A stretch of DNA of 37,672 nt from a virus. Below are positions 28,069-37,672 of this stretch, piece by piece. The stretch spans positions 1 through 37,672 of IMG/VR virus record IMGVR_UViG_3300032313_001367. One strand, 5' to 3'. The translations under genes and the position numbers were made by a program. The notes beneath the pieces are model-generated. The model searched no databases. It worked only from the letters and a program-made list of their open reading frames with translations, and was not told the origin of the DNA. Position 1 is the stretch's first letter. The number at the start of each line of letters is the position of its first letter.

Positions 28069-30732
28069 ATGAGCTATGTTGACGCACTTTATGATCGTAA
28101 CCAGGATCGTATCCACATTGTGGAACGTGTTGGTGGTGAACGTGTATACAAGGAGTACCCTGCCAACTATATCTTTTACTACGATGATCCTCGCGGTAAG
28201 TTCCGTACTGTCTACGGTACTCCTGTTAGCAGGTTTTCAAGTCGCTCGAATAAAGAGTTTCAAAAAGAACTACGTATTAACTCTAACAAGCGTCTTTGGG
28301 AATCAGATATTAATCCTGTATTCAGATGTTTAGAAGAGCACTACATTGGTGCTACTTCGCCTAAACTACAAACGGCATTTTTTGACATTGAGGTTGACTT
28401 TGATCCGGTAAAAGGTTTTAGTCGACCCGAAGATCCATTTAATCCAATAACTGCAATCAGTGTGTATCTTGACTGGATGGACAAGATGGTCACTCTTGTT
28501 GTCCCTCCTAAAAGTTATTCGTGGAAAACAGCTCAGGAAATCTGCGATCGGTATGATAACTGTTTCTTGTTCGAAAGAGAAGAAGATCTACTAAAAACTT
28601 TTCTTGATTTAATAGAAGATGCAGATATACTAAGTGGGTGGAACAGTGAAGGTTTTGATATTCCGTACATGATCATGCGTATAACCAGAGTACTAAACAA
28701 AGATGACACTAGACGTTTCTGCTTGTGGGGACAGTTACCCAAGCAACGTATGTTTGAACGTTTTGGTGCAGAAAACTTGACGTTTGACTTGATTGGTCGT
28801 GTACACCTTGACTATATGCAACTGTATCGCAAATACACATACGAAGAGCGTCATAGTTATAGCTTAGATGCTATTGGTGAATATGAATTAGAAGAACGCA
28901 AGACACAATACGAAGGTACATTAGACCAATTATACAACAAAGACTTTCCTAAGTTCATTGACTACAACAGGCAAGATACCATGCTTGTTGCTAAACTTGA
29001 CAAGAAACTTCGTTTCTTGGATTTGGCAAATGAACTAGCACATGATAATACTGTACTGCTTCCTACAACAATGGGAGCAGTAGCCGTAACTGAACAAGCG
29101 ATTATCAATGAAGCACATCAACGAGGTATGGTAGTACCTAACAGGAAAGGAAGAGATGATCAAGGTGACACACAAGCGGCAGGTGCCTATGTTGCTTTCC
29201 CCAAAAAAGGCATGCACGACTGGATCGGAGCAATCGACATCAACTCGCTCTATCCCTCGGCTATTAGAGCCCTTAACATGGCGCAAGAAAGTATTGTCGG
29301 ACAACTCAGACCCATAATGACTGACAGGTATATTCAAGAAAAGATGGCTGCAGGCAGCAGTTTTGCCGATGCCTGGGAAAACATGTTTGGTAGTCTTGAG
29401 TATACTGCTGTAATGAATGGCGAAGCAGGTACTGAAATTACTATAGACTGGGAAGCCGATGGTCGCAGTGATGTAATGAGTGCAGCTGATATATGGAGAT
29501 TAATCTTTGACTCAAATCGACCTTGGATGCTTAGTGCAAACGGCACGATTTTTAGCTATGAGCAAAAAGCCGTTGTACCCGGATTACTGGAACGTTGGTA
29601 CGCTGAACGAAAAGAACTCCAAGCAAAGAAAAAAGAAGCAGAAACAGACGACGATAAAGCCTTCTGGGACAAACGACAACTGGTCAAGAAAATTAATCTT
29701 AACAGCCTCTACGGGGCGATCCTTAACCCTGGATGTAGATTCTTCGACAAAAGGATTGGTCAAAGCACTACTCTTACTGGACGTATCATTGCTAGACACA
29801 TGGATGCATATATCAATGAGTGCATCATGGGGGAGTATGACCATGTGGGTGCAAGTATCATCTATGGAGACACTGATAGCTGTTATTTCACAGCTTGGCC
29901 GGCAATTAAAGACGATGTCGCCGCAGGCAGAATGGAATGGAACAAAGAAACCTGCATCCAGTTATACGATACCATCGCAGACCAAGTCAATGCCAGTTTC
30001 CCTGCGTTCATGGAACGAGCTTGTCACGTACCGAGGGCTAACGGGGATCTGATCAAAGGTGGACGTGAACTAGTTGCCAGCAAAGGCCTGTTTATCAAGA
30101 AGAAGCGTTATGCTGTTCTTATTATTGACTTAGAAAACAAACGACTGGATACACATGGCAAGCCTGGTAAGGTCAAGGCCATGGGTCTTGATCTAAAGCG
30201 TTCAGATACTCCCAAGGTTGTGCAGGACTTCTTAAGTGAACTATTAACTGCCGTTCTAACTGGTGCAGCACGAGAAGAAATATACGACCGTGTACGTGAC
30301 TTCAAGATTGCGTTCCAGGATAGACCTGCGTGGGAAAAAGGTACTCCCAAGCGTGTGAACAACTTGACCAAGTATGGCAAGGAAGAAGAACGACTGGGTC
30401 GTGCAAACATGCCGGGCCATGTACGTGCAGCATTGAATTGGAACAATCTACGTCGTATGCACGGTGATCAGTACAGTATGGCCATTGTTGACGGTATGAA
30501 AACTATTGTGTGTAAACTAAAAGACAATGCACTTGGTTATACGTCAGTTGGTTATCCCACAGATGAAAGCCATATTCCACAATGGTTCAAAGACTTACCA
30601 TTTGACGACAGTTTGATGGAAGCTACTATTGTGGATCAAAAAGTAGAAAATCTTTTGGGTGTACTAGATTGGGATATTCCCAGTCACACTGATATCAAGA
30701 CAACATTCGATAGCTTGTTTACGTTTAAATAA
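28069..30732 (+). CDS. 43: Family B DNA polymerase (T4 gp43-like)
   Basis: At 887 residues it is close to T4 gp43 (898). The 3'-5' exonuclease has ExoI F-F-D106-I-E108, ExoII N-S-E-G-F-D-I-P-Y-M and ExoIII Y-N-R-Q-D. The polymerase domain has motif A D390-I-N-S-L-Y-P-S, motif B around K-I-N-L-N545-S-L-Y-G, and motif C Y-G-D601-T-D603-S. All catalytic residues are present, so it should be an active, proofreading replicase, working with the clamp (31742) and clamp loader (4540). No intein or frameshift is seen. The gene lacks an obvious RBS. Confidence 0.97.
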   Translation: MSYVDALYDRNQDRIHIVERVGGERVYKEYPANYIFYYDDPRGKFRTVYGTPVSRFSSRSNKEFQKELRINSNKRLWESDINPVFRCLEEHYIGATSPKLQTAFFDIEVDFDPVKGFSRPEDPFNPITAISVYLDWMDKMVTLVVPPKSYSWKTAQEICDRYDNCFLFEREEDLLKTFLDLIEDADILSGWNSEGFDIPYMIMRITRVLNKDDTRRFCLWGQLPKQRMFERFGAENLTFDLIGRVHLDYMQLYRKYTYEERHSYSLDAIGEYELEERKTQYEGTLDQLYNKDFPKFIDYNRQDTMLVAKLDKKLRFLDLANELAHDNTVLLPTTMGAVAVTEQAIINEAHQRGMVVPNRKGRDDQGDTQAAGAYVAFPKKGMHDWIGAIDINSLYPSAIRALNMAQESIVGQLRPIMTDRYIQEKMAAGSSFADAWENMFGSLEYTAVMNGEAGTEITIDWEADGRSDVMSAADIWRLIFDSNRPWMLSANGTIFSYEQKAVVPGLLERWYAERKELQAKKKEAETDDDKAFWDKRQLVKKINLNSLYGAILNPGCRFFDKRIGQSTTLTGRIIARHMDAYINECIMGEYDHVGASIIYGDTDSCYFTAWPAIKDDVAAGRMEWNKETCIQLYDTIADQVNASFPAFMERACHVPRANGDLIKGGRELVASKGLFIKKKRYAVLIIDLENKRLDTHGKPGKVKAMGLDLKRSDTPKVVQDFLSELLTAVLTGAAREEIYDRVRDFKIAFQDRPAWEKGTPKRVNNLTKYGKEEERLGRANMPGHVRAALNWNNLRRMHGDQYSMAIVDGMKTIVCKLKDNALGYTSVGYPTDESHIPQWFKDLPFDDSLMEATIVDQKVENLLGVLDWDIPSHTDIKTTFDSLFTFK

Positions 30733-31741: not shown

Positions 31742-32464
31742 ATGAAAGATTATTTGCAAGATATAGTACAACACACACATAGCCTAGGCATCATTGATTT
31801 AGTAAAAATTGTTGGCAACGACAGCCAAACAATCATCGAGGCAGTTAGCGAAGAGCGAACGGTAATCGTGCAGGCACAATTCCACAACCCAGTTCCAGAA
31901 TTTATTGGAACATTTGGTATGCCTAGTTTAGGTAAATTGAATACTATTTTAAATATCCCTGAATACAAAGACGATGCCAAATTAACCATTACCAAGAAAG
32001 ATGAAATTTCTCCTAATGGAATTCATTTTGAAAACTCAGTCGGAGACTTTAAAAACGATTATCGTTTTATGAGTGCAGAGATTGTCAATGACAAACTTAA
32101 AACTGTAAAGTTCAAAGGTGTAAAATGGGGTGTGGAAATTGAACCAAGCGTGGCCAGTATTCAGCGACTAAAGTTTCAAGCACAAGCAAACAGCGAAGAA
32201 ACTACTTTTGTTGCCAAGGTTGAAAATGGCAATTTAGTATTTTACTTCGGCGATCATAGTAGTCATGCAGGCAATTTTGTATTTGCTCATGATGTTGCCG
32301 GATCATTGACTAAAGCATGGGCCTGGCCAATTAGTGCAGTTATAAGTATTCTGAGTCTAAGTGGCGATAAAATGATTAGATTCAGTGACGAAGGTGCTGC
32401 ACAAATCACTGTTGATTCTGGATTAGCTATTTACAATTACATTCTTCCTGCTCAACAGAAGTGA
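31742..32464 (+). CDS. 45: DNA polymerase sliding clamp (T4 gp45-like)
   Basis: The 240-residue product has the gp45 size (T4: 228 aa). It includes G-M-P-S-L-G-K-L-N-T-I-L-N-I-P-E-Y, the I-S-P-N-G-I-H-F-E-N-S region and A-W-P-I-S-A-V-I-S-I-L-S-L, which resemble T4-type clamps. The trimeric clamp tethers gp43 and, in T4, also activates late transcription with gp33 and gp55. It has its own promoter and a strong GGAGG Shine-Dalgarno. Its stop overlaps a sulfotransferase start. Confidence 0.82.
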   Translation: MKDYLQDIVQHTHSLGIIDLVKIVGNDSQTIIEAVSEERTVIVQAQFHNPVPEFIGTFGMPSLGKLNTILNIPEYKDDAKLTITKKDEISPNGIHFENSVGDFKNDYRFMSAEIVNDKLKTVKFKGVKWGVEIEPSVASIQRLKFQAQANSEETTFVAKVENGNLVFYFGDHSSHAGNFVFAHDVAGSLTKAWAWPISAVISILSLSGDKMIRFSDEGAAQITVDSGLAIYNYILPAQQK

Positions 32465-33084
32465 TCAAAGAGACAGGATATATCCCCGGCGAAGGAATGA
32501 TTTCACCAGCTAGGGATATATTTTATCTAAATATTCCCAAAAATGCTAGTACATATCTAAGTAATATCTTACTTGCTAATAATTGGGAACATTGGAATAT
32601 TATTACTGACATTACCACAGTGCAACACTCAATCGCATTTATCAGAGATCCTTTAGATCGATGGATTAGTGGATTCAGCACTTATATAGCATTACACATA
32701 TTAGGTAATGGGTATGGGAGTGATCATTTTGTTAAAGATTACAATGAATCAACTGAACGATTAATTTTTAATCAGATAATATTTGATGATCATACAGATT
32801 TACAATGCAATTTTATTAATCAAATAGCATTAAGTAGTCCAATATATTTCCGTTACAATAAACATCTAGTAGAACAAATTAATTTACTAACAGGATGCAA
32901 TCTAAATACCAATGTAATAGTTGATTCAAATCAAACAGATTCAAATTATGATACACAGAATATTTCAAAATTTATAAAAAATATACTAAATGAGAAACCG
33001 GATCTAAAAGCTAAAGTTATTAGAGCCTACAAAGATGACTACGACTTTATAAAAAATACAGAATTTTACCATGAGCCAAGATAA
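32461..33084 (+). CDS. Sulfotransferase-family protein
   Basis: The 207-residue product starts at GTG overlapping the clamp stop (GTGA). It has the PAPS 5'-phosphosulfate-binding loop P26-K-N-A-S-T31 after a beta strand (I-F-Y-L-N-I) and the 3'-phosphate-binding strand/helix A-F-I-R62-D-P-L-D-R67-W-I-S-G-F. These two motifs define sulfotransferases, which move sulfate from PAPS to a hydroxyl or amino group of a sugar, lipid or protein. The rest is Asn/Asp-rich and short compared with Golgi enzymes. Overlaps the next gene by 14 bases. Substrate unknown. Confidence 0.72.
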   Translation: MIKETGYIPGEGMISPARDIFYLNIPKNASTYLSNILLANNWEHWNIITDITTVQHSIAFIRDPLDRWISGFSTYIALHILGNGYGSDHFVKDYNESTERLIFNQIIFDDHTDLQCNFINQIALSSPIYFRYNKHLVEQINLLTGCNLNTNVIVDSNQTDSNYDTQNISKFIKNILNEKPDLKAKVIRAYKDDYDFIKNTEFYHEPR

Positions 33085-34627
33085 CTTAACATCAAAACAA
33101 TCAGATTATGCAGTGTTTTTACCTGCTATATCAGGCTTCTATGCAACTTTTATAGGAAAACAACGTGTTAACAATGATTATGTTGATCCTACTCGTATGC
33201 CTAAGGTATTACAGGATATGGAGCAATTCAATTGGCTCAACAGTCAACAAGCACTGTTTCCATACAAGTGGAGCCTATACTCAGGCGGACACGCAAACCT
33301 AGACCTCAACAAAGAAGATGCTAGTGAGGACATGGTGCGTAAGCGTGAGCCAGGTACATTTATGCTAGGAGATTCAGGTGGATTTCAGATTGCTAAAGGA
33401 CTATGGGAAGGCGATTGGAAGGCCAACTCAGGTTGTGCCAAAGCTGAAAAGAAACGTAGTTCTGTACTAAAATGGTTAGATGGCATTGCTGACTACGGAA
33501 TGATTCTTGATATTCCCACTTGGGTAATACATGACAAGAAAGCCAGTGATGCTTGCCAGATCAAAACACTGGATGAAGCAGTTGAGGCTACCAAGTTCAA
33601 CAACGAATACTTCATGCGGCATCGTCGAGGTAAGAACAATGGTGGTGCTCGGTTCTTGAATGTGTTGCAAGGTGATAATCATACCAGTGCCGAAGAATGG
33701 TATCAGACCATGAAAGAATATTGTGATCCTGTGAAATATCCTGACACGCACTTTGATGGTTGGTCAATGGGCGGACAGAATATGTGCGACATACATCTTG
33801 TGCTTAAACGATTGGTGGCATTGCGATATGATAATCTATTGCAAGAGGGCAAACATGATTGGATGCACTTCTTGGGCACAAGTAAACTAGAGTGGGCTTT
33901 GTTGTTAACAGATATTCAACGAGCAGTTAGAAAATATGTTAATCCCTCTTTTACTATTAGTTTTGATTGTGCCAGTCCTTTCTTGGCAACTGCTAATGGA
34001 CAATTGTATTATCAAATTGATATCGAACACGACAAAAAATGGTCGTACAAAATGAAGCCCGGTGCAGATGATAAAAAATATGCAACTGATACAAGATTAT
34101 TTAGAGATGCCTTGCTACAAGATGTAGATCTTGAATTTGATCATTTTGAAGACAGTCCAATTAGCCAGCACCTGATGATCAAAGATATTTGCATTTACAA
34201 ACCCGGTGATCTAAATAAAAATGGTAAAGAAGGCAAGACATCCTGGGATAGTTTTAGTTATGCACTAATGATGGGACACAATGTATGGATGCATATTGAA
34301 GCAGTACAAAGAGCAAATAGAAAATATGATCAGGGAGAACTTCCTGCCATGCTCTGGCATCGTAAAGGCGACCATAGTAAGTTTAGAGACATTGTTGAAG
34401 CCATATTCTCGGCTCCTGATAGATCTAGTGCCGAAGCAATTATCGAACATTACGATAGCTATTGGATGGACATCGTGGGCACTCGAGGTTTCAAGGGTAA
34501 AAAGACCAAGAACTCTAATACAATGTTTAATGCACTTTTTGAAACCGTGGAAACTGTCGAAGACGAAACAGACAGCATGTCCGAAGACGAAGCAGAAAAT
34601 ATTATGCAATCTTATTTGGAGGATTAA
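33071..34627 (+). CDS. tRNA-guanine transglycosylase-like protein, DpdA-type candidate
   Basis: The 518-residue product carries the TGT signature F-M-L-G-D101-S-G-G-F-Q (general acid Asp), N-V-L-Q-G-D-N (TGT V-Q-G-G region), G-W-S-M-G-G-Q-N (TGT G-G-L region) and S-F-D299-C-A-S-P, the position of the nucleophile Asp. TGTs exchange guanine for 7-deazaguanine bases. Phage DpdA homologues do this in DNA, protecting against restriction. No zinc-ligand Cys cluster of bacterial TGT and no PUA domain is obvious, which argues against a tRNA enzyme. It overlaps the sulfotransferase gene. DpdA is likely but not proven. Confidence 0.75.
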   Translation: MSQDNLTSKQSDYAVFLPAISGFYATFIGKQRVNNDYVDPTRMPKVLQDMEQFNWLNSQQALFPYKWSLYSGGHANLDLNKEDASEDMVRKREPGTFMLGDSGGFQIAKGLWEGDWKANSGCAKAEKKRSSVLKWLDGIADYGMILDIPTWVIHDKKASDACQIKTLDEAVEATKFNNEYFMRHRRGKNNGGARFLNVLQGDNHTSAEEWYQTMKEYCDPVKYPDTHFDGWSMGGQNMCDIHLVLKRLVALRYDNLLQEGKHDWMHFLGTSKLEWALLLTDIQRAVRKYVNPSFTISFDCASPFLATANGQLYYQIDIEHDKKWSYKMKPGADDKKYATDTRLFRDALLQDVDLEFDHFEDSPISQHLMIKDICIYKPGDLNKNGKEGKTSWDSFSYALMMGHNVWMHIEAVQRANRKYDQGELPAMLWHRKGDHSKFRDIVEAIFSAPDRSSAEAIIEHYDSYWMDIVGTRGFKGKKTKNSNTMFNALFETVETVEDETDSMSEDEAENIMQSYLED

Positions 34628-34628
34628 T

Positions 34629-34841
34629 ATGAGCTATAAAGCTAAAATTAAACATTTAGAAGAAATGCATCGAGTTCTAAATAAACAAATTGATGACATG
34701 GAACGTAATCATCCGCATGTGGAAGTTGAAAAACTCGCCAATCTTAAAAAACAAAAATTACAAATCAAAGATGAAATTGGTAGGCTTACTCGATTACAGT
34801 GGGAAGAAGAAAACGAACGAATAGGATATGGTGATGAATAG
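34629..34841 (+). CDS. Small YdcH/DUF465-like coiled-coil protein
   Basis: A 70-residue all-helical protein with the YdcH-type pattern: L-E-E-M-H-R-V-L-N-K-Q-I-D-D-M-E ... L-A-N-L-K-K-Q-K-L-Q-I-K-D-E-I-G-R-L. This forms a short antiparallel hairpin. It follows the DpdA-like gene by one base; GGAGG upstream. The next gene starts inside it. Function of this family is unknown. Confidence 0.65.
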   Translation: MSYKAKIKHLEEMHRVLNKQIDDMERNHPHVEVEKLANLKKQKLQIKDEIGRLTRLQWEEENERIGYGDE

Positions 34842-35349
34842 AACTGGGCACAATACCGCGCAATTGTTTGTAGGTACAGAAATAGAATATAGTCCTGCTC
34901 TTGGACAAAAAACACTGTTTGTGGTTGGAACACAGCCACAAGAATTAATTGAAGCTGCAATGATTGCACACAAATGTAGTCATATATATTTTGGTGCCAA
35001 TCAAAGTTTTCCCAAGCTTGACACCAATTCTCCGGTATGGACAGAATGGGAAAACATGATACATCCGTTTCTAGCTCGCGGTTATTGGTGTACCTTGGAC
35101 ATTGACATAAATCAAGTTGAAGGATTGTTAGAATCTGGACTAACTGAATATCACAAATTTATTCCCATGATATCGGTTAAATTGCCCTATTTACAACAAC
35201 TGGGATATAATGCTACAATTAAACTAGATGACAAAGATTTTGCAGCCACAAATCCTGGTGTATGGTGTCATAGTTTACATAGTTTAACACAACGACAAGG
35301 TATATTTACGGATTGGTCACAATATACCAAAGATGAGATTATTAAATGA
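34834..35349 (+). CDS. Conserved phage protein of unknown function (171 aa)
   Basis: The product contains V-G-T-E-I-E-Y-S-P-A-L-G-Q-K-T-L-F-V-V-G, H-I-Y-F-G-A-N-Q-S-F and A-A-T-N-P-G-V-W-C-H, blocks that look strongly conserved but match no domain I can name. An ATG at 34828 is also possible; ATG 34834 has AGGA at a better distance. It lies between the DpdA-like gene and a possible QueD-like gene, so a link to 7-deazaguanine chemistry is conceivable but not shown. Confidence 0.6.
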   Translation: MNRTGHNTAQLFVGTEIEYSPALGQKTLFVVGTQPQELIEAAMIAHKCSHIYFGANQSFPKLDTNSPVWTEWENMIHPFLARGYWCTLDIDINQVEGLLESGLTEYHKFIPMISVKLPYLQQLGYNATIKLDDKDFAATNPGVWCHSLHSLTQRQGIFTDWSQYTKDEIIK

Positions 35350-35795
35350 TCCAACAACAAAGAGAAACAGTAGAAAGAATCAAGGAACATGCACATCGCA
35401 TGATATGGGTTACCTTTCAACGGGAAGGTATTCATTGTTATCCAGCAGCAGCAACAGATCCATTATTGGCAACCGGAGACAAATATGATGTATCGTTCCT
35501 TGGCTATCCCCATCGCCACATTTTTCATTTCAGGGTGTGTATTGATGTCTACCACAACGACAGAGACATCGAATTCATCCAATTCAAACGCTGGCTTGAA
35601 GGATTGTATAGTGGCGACCAAAATAGTTTGCAGCTCGACTATAAGAGTTGCGAAATGATTGCAGATGACTTATATCTCCAAATCGCCAATCGATATCCTG
35701 ATCGTAATGTTATAATTGAAGTAAGCGAGGACGGCGAGAATGGCTGCTCTATCACCTACAATACACATCAACCATCTCTATCAATAAAAATTTAA
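35346..35795 (+). CDS. Conserved phage protein, possible QueD/T-fold resemblance
   Basis: The 149-residue product has H-R-H-I-F-H-F-R-V-C-I-D-V, then I-E-F-I-Q-F-K-R-W-L-E, and S-C-E-M-I-A-D-D-L ... V-I-I-E-V-S-E-D-G. This order mirrors 6-carboxytetrahydropterin synthase (QueD: H-x-H zinc ligands, G-x-x-x-D-F-x-x-L-K, and T/S-x-E-N-L-A). The match is partial: the catalytic Cys position and third zinc His are not certain. ATGA overlap with the previous gene. Position near a DpdA-like gene makes the link attractive, but it is inferred. Confidence 0.5.
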   Translation: MIQQQRETVERIKEHAHRMIWVTFQREGIHCYPAAATDPLLATGDKYDVSFLGYPHRHIFHFRVCIDVYHNDRDIEFIQFKRWLEGLYSGDQNSLQLDYKSCEMIADDLYLQIANRYPDRNVIIEVSEDGENGCSITYNTHQPSLSIKI

Positions 35796-36024: not shown

Positions 36025-36284
36025 CGTTAGTTCTTAACTTTATTAAAAATCATATCTCAGCATTTGAAATGCTGGGTGTGATTATGCGTATTATTAGTTT
36101 TAGTTTAGTATCGTGGTTAGGACCAGCAAGCCCATTTATGTTTGTTTGGATCTTTAATACTGTTGATGCTGTACTATTAACGTATTGTGCTATGTTAAAG
36201 AAAGATCAAGCATACACTTTACTTAACGGTTTTTGGATTATTGTTGGTATCATTGGCATTACTAGAGCAGGAGGTTGGATATAA
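36021..36284 (+). CDS. Small multi-pass membrane protein (87 aa)
   Basis: Three hydrophobic segments (about 14-32, 38-58, 68-82) with W, R and D between, similar in layout to the protein at 27641. The ATGA start overlaps the previous gene and TAATG joins it to the glycosyltransferase. Function unknown. Confidence 0.6.
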   Translation: MTLVLNFIKNHISAFEMLGVIMRIISFSLVSWLGPASPFMFVWIFNTVDAVLLTYCAMLKKDQAYTLLNGFWIIVGIIGITRAGGWI

Positions 36285-37480
36285 TGCGTAAATTATGGTA
36301 CATGGGCCTAGAGCCTTATAAAGCAAGATACACTCTGCAATTACAAGAGTGGAATCGTGCTGTGTTTGAACAGCGTGATATTGACTATCATATTGTGCCA
36401 GGACTTAATCTTGATAACAGCCAAAAGATCAGCGTAGGACAAGTGCTAGACGCACATGGTCGTACATACTTTGGCATGAGTCAAATGATGAATCTAGTTC
36501 GCATGATGCAACAAGGAGAAGTTACAAGTGAAGATGTGGTATTCTTTGAAGACATGTTTCAACCTGGTATCGAGAGCTTACCTTATATCATGCAGCAGTG
36601 CGATCCTGGTATGCGTCCTAGGATTGCCGTTCGTTGTCTTGCACAAACTATTGACCCTGACGACTTTGTTCATGTCTGGGGCATGCAAGAATGGATGGGT
36701 CACTATGAAAAGATGATAGACTCGTTTGCTGACATCATTCTTGCTACCAATGAAGAAATGGTCATGCACATGAAGGTAGCCGGTTGGCGAGGCGATATCT
36801 ATAACATCTCAGGACTGGCATTTGGTAAAGCAGAAGTACGCAGTAGAGTACCGGGTGAACTAAAGCCATTTAACGAACGTACCTATCGTGTGGGCTTTGC
36901 AGCACGTTGGGACCAAGAGAAGCAACCAGATTTTTACATGGACTTGATTGAAGAATATCATCGTGTACAAAGCATGGCTTATAGTGATTGGCCCCGGGTA
37001 GAGTTCTGTATCTTCAGTGGTGCAAAACTACGCAGTAATAACGATAGTTATATGAAACGTACTCGTGACTTACAGGAACGTGGACTATTAACAGTGTATG
37101 AGGATTTAGAAAAGAATGATTACTATGCTTTGCTTAACGATACTCGTGTGTTGTTTAATTGCGCCTTACAAGATTGGGTTTCCAACACAGTCAGCGAAGC
37201 AGATACTCTTGGGTGTAATGTTTTATACCCTGCTTATAGGTCTTTTCCTGAAACTTTTGCTAATGACAGTGACAGGCTTTACATTCCCTGGTCATTGACA
37301 GATGCACTCAGCAAGCTCAGTAAACTACTCGAGGTACCACATCACAATATGGGTAAGATTAGTGCATGGAATGATGGTACTATTGGTCGTACAATTGACA
37401 TCTTGGAAGGTAAAGGCAAACAGTGGTTGCGTATGAGTACCGACTATCGTAAGCATACACACGAAAGCAAATACAAGTGA
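36284..37480 (+). CDS. GT-B-like glycosyltransferase
   Basis: The 398-residue product begins M-R-K-L-W-Y-M-G-L-E and has two Rossmann-like halves: an N-terminal acceptor half, and a C-terminal half starting near V-G-F-A-A-R-W-D-Q-E-K-Q-P-D (as in GT4-type 'G-R-x-x-x-x-K' donor sites), then F-C-I-F-S-G-A, Y-Y-A-L-L-N-D-T-R-V-L-F-N and N-T-V-S-E-A-D-T-L-G-C-N (glycosyltransferase E-A-x-x-x-G motif). AGGAGG lies nine bases before the ATG. It may glycosylate phage DNA, virion or host surface; target unknown. A GalE-like gene follows, which could supply its sugar donor. Confidence 0.72.
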   Translation: MRKLWYMGLEPYKARYTLQLQEWNRAVFEQRDIDYHIVPGLNLDNSQKISVGQVLDAHGRTYFGMSQMMNLVRMMQQGEVTSEDVVFFEDMFQPGIESLPYIMQQCDPGMRPRIAVRCLAQTIDPDDFVHVWGMQEWMGHYEKMIDSFADIILATNEEMVMHMKVAGWRGDIYNISGLAFGKAEVRSRVPGELKPFNERTYRVGFAARWDQEKQPDFYMDLIEEYHRVQSMAYSDWPRVEFCIFSGAKLRSNNDSYMKRTRDLQERGLLTVYEDLEKNDYYALLNDTRVLFNCALQDWVSNTVSEADTLGCNVLYPAYRSFPETFANDSDRLYIPWSLTDALSKLSKLLEVPHHNMGKISAWNDGTIGRTIDILEGKGKQWLRMSTDYRKHTHESKYK

Positions 37481-37672
37481 AAATAGTCGTCACAGGAGGA
37501 TGCGGCTATATTGGTAGCCATATTGCTAGGGCACTTAAACAACATGATTCAAATAATCATGTTTATATAATTGATCGTGAGCGCAGAGATCACACACTAA
37601 AAAACGTTGATGGATTCCTACACTCTGACTATGCTGCTCGTGCCAGTTTAATGTGGATAACTGAGTTAGAAC
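37477..37672 (+). CDS. NAD-dependent sugar epimerase/dehydratase, GalE-like (3' truncated)
   Basis: A GTG at 37477 overlaps the previous stop (GTGA). The visible 65 residues start V-K-I-V-V-T-G-G-C-G-Y-I-G-S-H-I-A, the GxxGxxG NAD-binding loop of short-chain-dehydrogenase-type epimerases such as UDP-glucose 4-epimerase, followed by an acidic I-I-D-R at the expected ribose-binding position. The catalytic Y-x-x-x-K lies beyond the window. AGGAGG near 37496 is internal to the gene. Confidence 0.8.
   Translation, partial: MKIVVTGGCGYIGSHIARALKQHDSNNHVYIIDRERRDHTLKNVDGFLHSDYAARASLMWITELE

Follow-up and report, generated by a model that had tools for sequence, protein, structure and literature searches.

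DpdA and DpdA2 have established roles in phage DNA modification: 9g DpdA inserts dPreQ0/dG+ in DNA, and the DNA of nt-1 contains dPreQ0 (PMC6884629). A conserved DpdA histidine, His196, is said to be lacking in DpdA2 (PMC6884629). Deazaguanine systems have also been named in the jumbo phages Motura and PA5oct, for PA5oct as synthesis/incorporation (PMC7824862). Here, we describe a related gene in a viral contig from IMG/VR, analyzed as a single window of 37,672 nucleotides. Its product is very probably a DpdA-kind DNA-guanine transglycosylase whose base would be supplied by the phage itself, through a pathway with genes just past the right end of the window. The fold, the catalytic residues, the family relationship and the operon in relatives were computed here, and each is described below.

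The gene, its fold and its family

The gene under study is the following feature:

33071..34627, plus strand: predicted DpdA-like guanine transglycosylase, 518 aa, with a TGT fold, a profile match to DpdA2 and Tgt, and invariant catalytic residues

The ORF has an ATG start and shares 14 nt with the ORF before it. The first-pass annotation had placed it correctly, and it is a real and conserved gene: at least 80 IMG/VR loci encode a protein 74-87% identical to it, these being the best 80 of at least 599 confirmed candidate loci. Compared with its 12 nearest relatives, the gene shows a dN of 0.08-0.12 and a near-saturated dS of 1.3-2.8, a combination that identifies the product as a protein under strong purifying selection. 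Isolate phages annotate family members as ‘hypothetical protein’, isolate homologues used as queries recovered almost no IMG/VR loci, and no description of the family as such was found in the literature.

Single-sequence searches of Pfam, PHROGs, NCBIfam, PADLOC and the PDB returned no match for the transglycosylase, and the Pfam TGT model (PF01702) matched none of 19 family members at E 0.5, compared with 2.8e-168 for E. coli Tgt. Controls behaved similarly. The TGT model recognizes E. coli Tgt alone and misses nt-1 DpdA2, four DpdA2 relatives and 9g DpdA, and the last of these scores 13.9 bits against the NCBIfam DpdA model, whose cut-off is 200. Since the libraries miss known phage DpdAs or do not credibly name them, their silence is no evidence against a transglycosylase.

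Profile comparisons, based on an alignment of 57 diverse members with identity down to 20%, place the family among the transglycosylases. In hhalign, it matches the DpdA2 alignment with all motifs in register (P 97%, E 1.8e-11), and its closest relative outside the family is the transglycosylase of Achromobacter phage Motura (P 97%, E 3.6e-10). The match to E. coli Tgt (P 81%, E 1.2e-5) resembles that of the DpdA2 family to the same enzyme (P 82%, E 1e-5), and the controls, shuffled Tgt and QueA, remain at P<1% against the family. When whole phage genomes are scanned with the family HMM, DpdA2 is the sole match in nt-1 (E 0.007) and the transglycosylase is the sole match in Motura (E 7e-7). 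The HMM has no match in the Campylobacter phages NCTC12673 and CP220, and it also misses 9g and CAjan. A profile search of the PDB with the family returns TGTs only, but at E 0.4-0.9.

Structure prediction against TGT and DpdA, the check that the first-pass annotation had proposed, points the same way. The AlphaFold model has a mean pLDDT of 90 and a pTM of 0.87, with low confidence at residues 471-501. All 14 Foldseek matches in the PDB with E<1e-3 are TGTs, which also fill the top 50 rows after structural re-alignment (Z 18.8-20.2 over ~300 residues), and nt-1 DpdA2 is among the matches in viral structure models (E 5e-10).

Cui et al. reportedly added, in 2023, DpdA3, DpdA4, dCDG and dDG. 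On sequence grounds, the present family is best called a separate subfamily, nearest to Motura and DpdA2, although it may coincide with the published DpdA3 or DpdA4, the types of Campylobacter phages and archaeal viruses.

Homologues are also found outside recognized viral records. Four loci binned with Pacearchaeota, Neomarinimicrobiota, Euryarchaeota and Rhodobacteraceae MAGs (L176-L179) encode proteins 50-61% identical to that of the window, which probably reflects wrong binning of phage contigs and not genes of the cells themselves. Chromosomal homologues (L184-L218, from genome contigs of mostly Alpha- and Betaproteobacteria) share 24-38% identity and lack the neighbors seen in the phages. 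They lie near an uncharacterized protein of ~550 aa that falls into two clusters (11 and 7 loci), and a protein family of ~200 aa is nearby in 13 of 19 loci. In L206 this ~200 aa protein is a phage integrase, and genes for a reverse transcriptase and a DNA polymerase of family A come directly after. These chromosomal loci apparently represent an integrative element with a DpdA-like enzyme.

Active-site and zinc features

Across the 57-member alignment, the only invariant columns are P18, D101, S102, G104, Q106, P149, W210, H266 and D299. Three features of the gene encode the motifs discussed here:

33371..33388, plus strand: codons of D101-S-G-G-F-Q106; D101, S102, G104 and Q106 are present in 57/57 members, placed by hhalign register
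33866..33868, plus strand: codon of H266, present in 57/57 members, placed by motif comparison
33965..33967, plus strand: codon of D299, the predicted nucleophile, present in 57/57 members, placed by hhalign

Both the D-S-G-G-F-Q motif and the candidate nucleophile had been read as kept from the single sequence, and both are. D101 aligns with D89 of E. coli Tgt and D76 of DpdA2, while the segment ISFDCASP aligns with MFDCVMPT of Tgt, which puts D299 at the position of Tgt D264. H266 lies in an H-x-L-G motif common to nt-1 DpdA2 (H235) and Motura (H265). In 9g DpdA the counterpart is H196-G-F-G, and E. coli Tgt lacks the motif. H266 may thus be equivalent to His196 of 9g DpdA by motif order, not by significant alignment. 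Active-site geometry is likewise predicted from alignments.

The earlier reading that the zinc and PUA features of bacterial tRNA-TGT are not seen holds for the zinc cysteines and for the PUA domain, and fails for the zinc histidine. The CxCxxC zinc motif of E. coli Tgt was not found in the transglycosylase, where the sole nearby cysteine is C374, and no PUA-like C-terminal domain is apparent. The zinc-site histidine (H333 in E. coli) is nevertheless retained as H403 in 56 of 57 members.

These features bear on an alternative in which the product is a phage tRNA-guanine transglycosylase that raises queuosine-type tRNA modification during infection and is fed by phage FolE, QueD and QueE. The fold and catalytic residues are as in Tgt, and the retained zinc histidine is a tRNA-TGT feature that, like the absence of a significant alignment to 9g DpdA, counts against the DpdA-type reading. 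Against this, the Tgt cysteine ligands are lost, and the H-x-L/F-G histidine of DNA-acting DpdAs, absent from E. coli Tgt, is invariant in this family.

Gene neighborhood and base synthesis

The window contains the following neighbors of the transglycosylase gene, with frequencies given for 80 close and 80 intermediate relatives:

28069..30732, plus strand: family B DNA polymerase (Pfam DNA_pol_B 1.8e-32, phrog_262), near the transglycosylase in 78/80 close and 75/80 intermediate loci
31742..32464, plus strand: conserved uncharacterized protein just upstream, phrog_12062, on the same strand in 80/80 close and 78/80 intermediate loci
32461-33084: sulfotransferase-like gene directly upstream of the transglycosylase (Pfam Sulfotransfer_2 1.1e-6)
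34629..34841, plus strand: small charged ORF of ~70 aa, found by tblastn of the L010 homologue in 24/80 close and 7/80 intermediate loci
34828..35349, plus strand: p176, conserved uncharacterized protein of 173 aa, in 74/80 close and 73/80 intermediate loci, always on the same strand
35346..35795, plus strand: p149 (phrog_17812), conserved uncharacterized protein of 149 aa, with a 55-57% identical copy in PA5oct
36275..37480, plus strand: glycosyltransferase-like protein between the transglycosylase and FolE, in 59/80 close loci (Pfam Glyco_trans_1_2 at only E 0.1)
37477..37671, plus strand: first part of an NAD-dependent epimerase gene that runs past the end of the window (Pfam Epimerase 4.6e-7)

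The sulfotransferase-like gene is variable (28 of 80 close loci), and the small charged ORF is retained mostly in close relatives. By size and position, the phrog_12062 protein was considered as a sliding clamp, an identity that profile comparison does not support (P<1% against T4 gp45 and the 9g clamp).

In relatives, the gene order is DNA polymerase, (methyltransferase), phrog_12062 protein, (sulfotransferase), transglycosylase, p176, p149, glycosyltransferase-like protein, epimerase, (DegT), FolE, phosphoribosyltransferase, QueD and QueE, all on one strand. FolE, QueD, QueC, QueF and QueA are all absent from the window, which holds no gene of the pathway; the first-pass annotation had likewise seen no complete queuosine-precursor pathway there. 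The right edge of the window, at 37672, cuts the epimerase gene, and relatives have FolE 1-2 genes after it. Every one of the 29 close relatives whose downstream sequence spans at least 9.5 kb has FolE, and FolE, joined in the closest relatives by QueD and QueE, lies at most ~14 kb downstream of the transglycosylase on the same strand. Across 20 kb from each of 18 long relatives, FolE and QueE each occur in 15, QueD in 8, and p176 and p149 in all 18. Intermediate relatives have FolE within the available flank in 24 of 34 cases, the rest being without it. Matches above the Pfam cut-off occur for FolE in 20 of 27 records and for the QueD family in 18 of them. Pfam and NCBIfam together identify FolE, QueD, QueE and a xanthine/guanine-type phosphoribosyltransferase, although the NCBIfam scores fall below curated equivalog cut-offs. 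The suggestion that substrate may come from other phage genes is thus largely borne out in relatives with enough sequence, and the window’s own genome would carry the pathway genes just past its right edge.

Of the 18 long relatives, 11 have the phosphoribosyltransferase gene (19301-19849 in L010, and homologues) placed between FolE and QueD/QueE, and its product may salvage guanine released by base exchange.

Later pathway enzymes are scarcer, in contigs that may be incomplete and in which gene absences are therefore weak evidence. QueC exceeds the cut-off only in Vibrio phage 2.275.O, with a partial match in one IMG/VR contig, in records that may themselves be incomplete. QueF is found only in 2.275.O and is absent from 26 of 27 records, QueA occurs in 0 of 27, and the asparagine-synthase amidotransferase domain known from Motura is not above cut-off in the IMG/VR relatives. 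The near-absence of QueC implies a phage-encoded route that ends at 7-carboxy-7-deazaguanine. Vibrio phage 2.275.O has QueF, a YhhQ-type transporter, QueC, FolE and QueE within 8 kb of its homologue. The gene directly after its transglycosylase (L083, 13723-14835) is a borderline match to Pfam Amidoligase_2, with 21.9 bits against a cut-off of 22; a partner that forms amides would be compatible with a carboxylated base.

The conserved neighbor p176 is a candidate pathway component. Its model (pLDDT 81) has no significant PDB match; a weak QueE-like match (to E. coli QueE, Z 6.2 over 126 residues) belongs to a set of QueE rows at Z ~6 that are meaningless by themselves, and p176 has no conserved radical-SAM cysteine motif. 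In p149, H30, H56, H58, K100-S-C-E and E128-D are invariant. The three histidines raised the suspicion of a QueD-like tunneling-fold protein; its profile reaches only P 3% against QueD, and single members show weak Pfam PTPS and FolB matches. It could be a zinc-binding tunneling-fold enzyme. Between PA5oct and the window, p149 is more conserved (55-57% identity) than the transglycosylase (34-36%).

Probable substrate, candidate bases and comparison with known systems

The lost zinc cysteines, the DpdA-type histidine, the DNA polymerase neighborhood and the absence of QueA from 27/27 records favor DNA over tRNA, and the most likely substrate is the phage’s own DNA. A host queuosine pathway could also be fed by phage FolE, QueD and QueE, yet the QueA needed for tRNA queuosine is missing from every record, QueF is missing from nearly all, and a DNA polymerase lies near the gene in nearly all relatives, as with 9g dpdA. 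A tRNA-directed role is accordingly improbable. Still less credible is a protein with the TGT fold but no longer any base-exchange activity, serving instead as, for example, a DNA glycosylase or a nucleic-acid binder: its sequence is far from every characterized transglycosylase (no Pfam, NCBIfam or PHROG match), but both catalytic aspartates are invariant in 57 members down to 20% identity and genes for a replacement base are linked to it. A DpdA-like transglycosylase, as first proposed, is the reading on which TGT fold, catalytic residues, DpdA-type histidine and gene neighborhood agree.

By analogy with TGT, D299 of this DpdA-like enzyme would attack C1' of deoxyguanosine in phage DNA and displace guanine, with D101 as acid/base, and a free 7-deazaguanine would then occupy the place of guanine. 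FolE, QueD and QueE, encoded just beyond the window, would convert GTP to 7-carboxy-7-deazaguanine. With QueC missing in nearly all relatives, the inserted base may be this compound itself, yielding dCDG (possibly processed further), or host QueC may first convert it to preQ0; the two routes are about equally likely. Many restriction enzymes should fail to cut the modified DNA, and the modification would serve as camouflage against those of bacteria. It is conceivable, though we consider it unlikely, that the separate subfamily inserts 7-carboxy-7-deazaguanine directly and that the carboxylate is a handle for modification by p176, p149 and the glycosyltransferase-like gene. If true, such direct insertion would be a new route to DNA hypermodification without QueC.

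Hundreds of environmental viral contigs encode this transglycosylase, and because an enzyme so widespread is unrecognized by Pfam, PHROGs, NCBIfam and PADLOC, guanine-modified DNA in large phages is probably commoner than annotations suggest. A pathway without QueC would yield an unusual base, and the two conserved neighbors are candidates for new steps. Homologues in the cultured Pseudomonas phages PA5oct, Paride and Callisto, the first with the same QueC-less gene set, make the prediction testable.

Among known systems, nt-1 DpdA2 (YP_008125322) shares the TGT fold, the DSGG-Q motif, the H-x-L-G histidine, the IS[FY]D nucleophile motif and linkage to 7-deazaguanine synthesis genes. It differs in having QueC next door, whereas most of the present family lacks it. 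The present family’s isolates were not among the records listed for a tblastn search with nt-1 DpdA2 (10 of 70 records unlisted), and in the same comparison an A3 profile has no match in PA5oct, Vibrio 2.275.O or Phosso. The Motura transglycosylase likewise lies within a cluster of QueC, AsnB-like, QueE and FolE genes; unlike the present family, it keeps the CxCxxC motif and is accompanied by QueC and an amidotransferase-like gene. E. coli Tgt shares the fold, the catalytic aspartates and the zinc histidine, but has the zinc cysteines, lacks H266 and acts on tRNA.

9g DpdA, of the DpdA1 (9g/CAjan) type, has D-S-G, His196 and Asp215 motifs that follow one another as in the present family and adjoins DNA polymerase genes, but it is 317 rather than 518 aa long and 9g has Gat-QueC. 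The family gives no significant profile alignment to the single 9g DpdA sequence, an outcome shared by DpdA2. Within the family, PA5oct gp168 is a full-length member, and the genome of PA5oct, which was deposited as complete, encodes FolE, two QueD and QueE but lacks QueC. In PA5oct, however, FolE/QueD lie ~54 kb from the transglycosylase, and in its record the gene carries no label beyond hypothetical. In gene content, the family is marked by a mostly QueC-less set and by two conserved uncharacterized partners.
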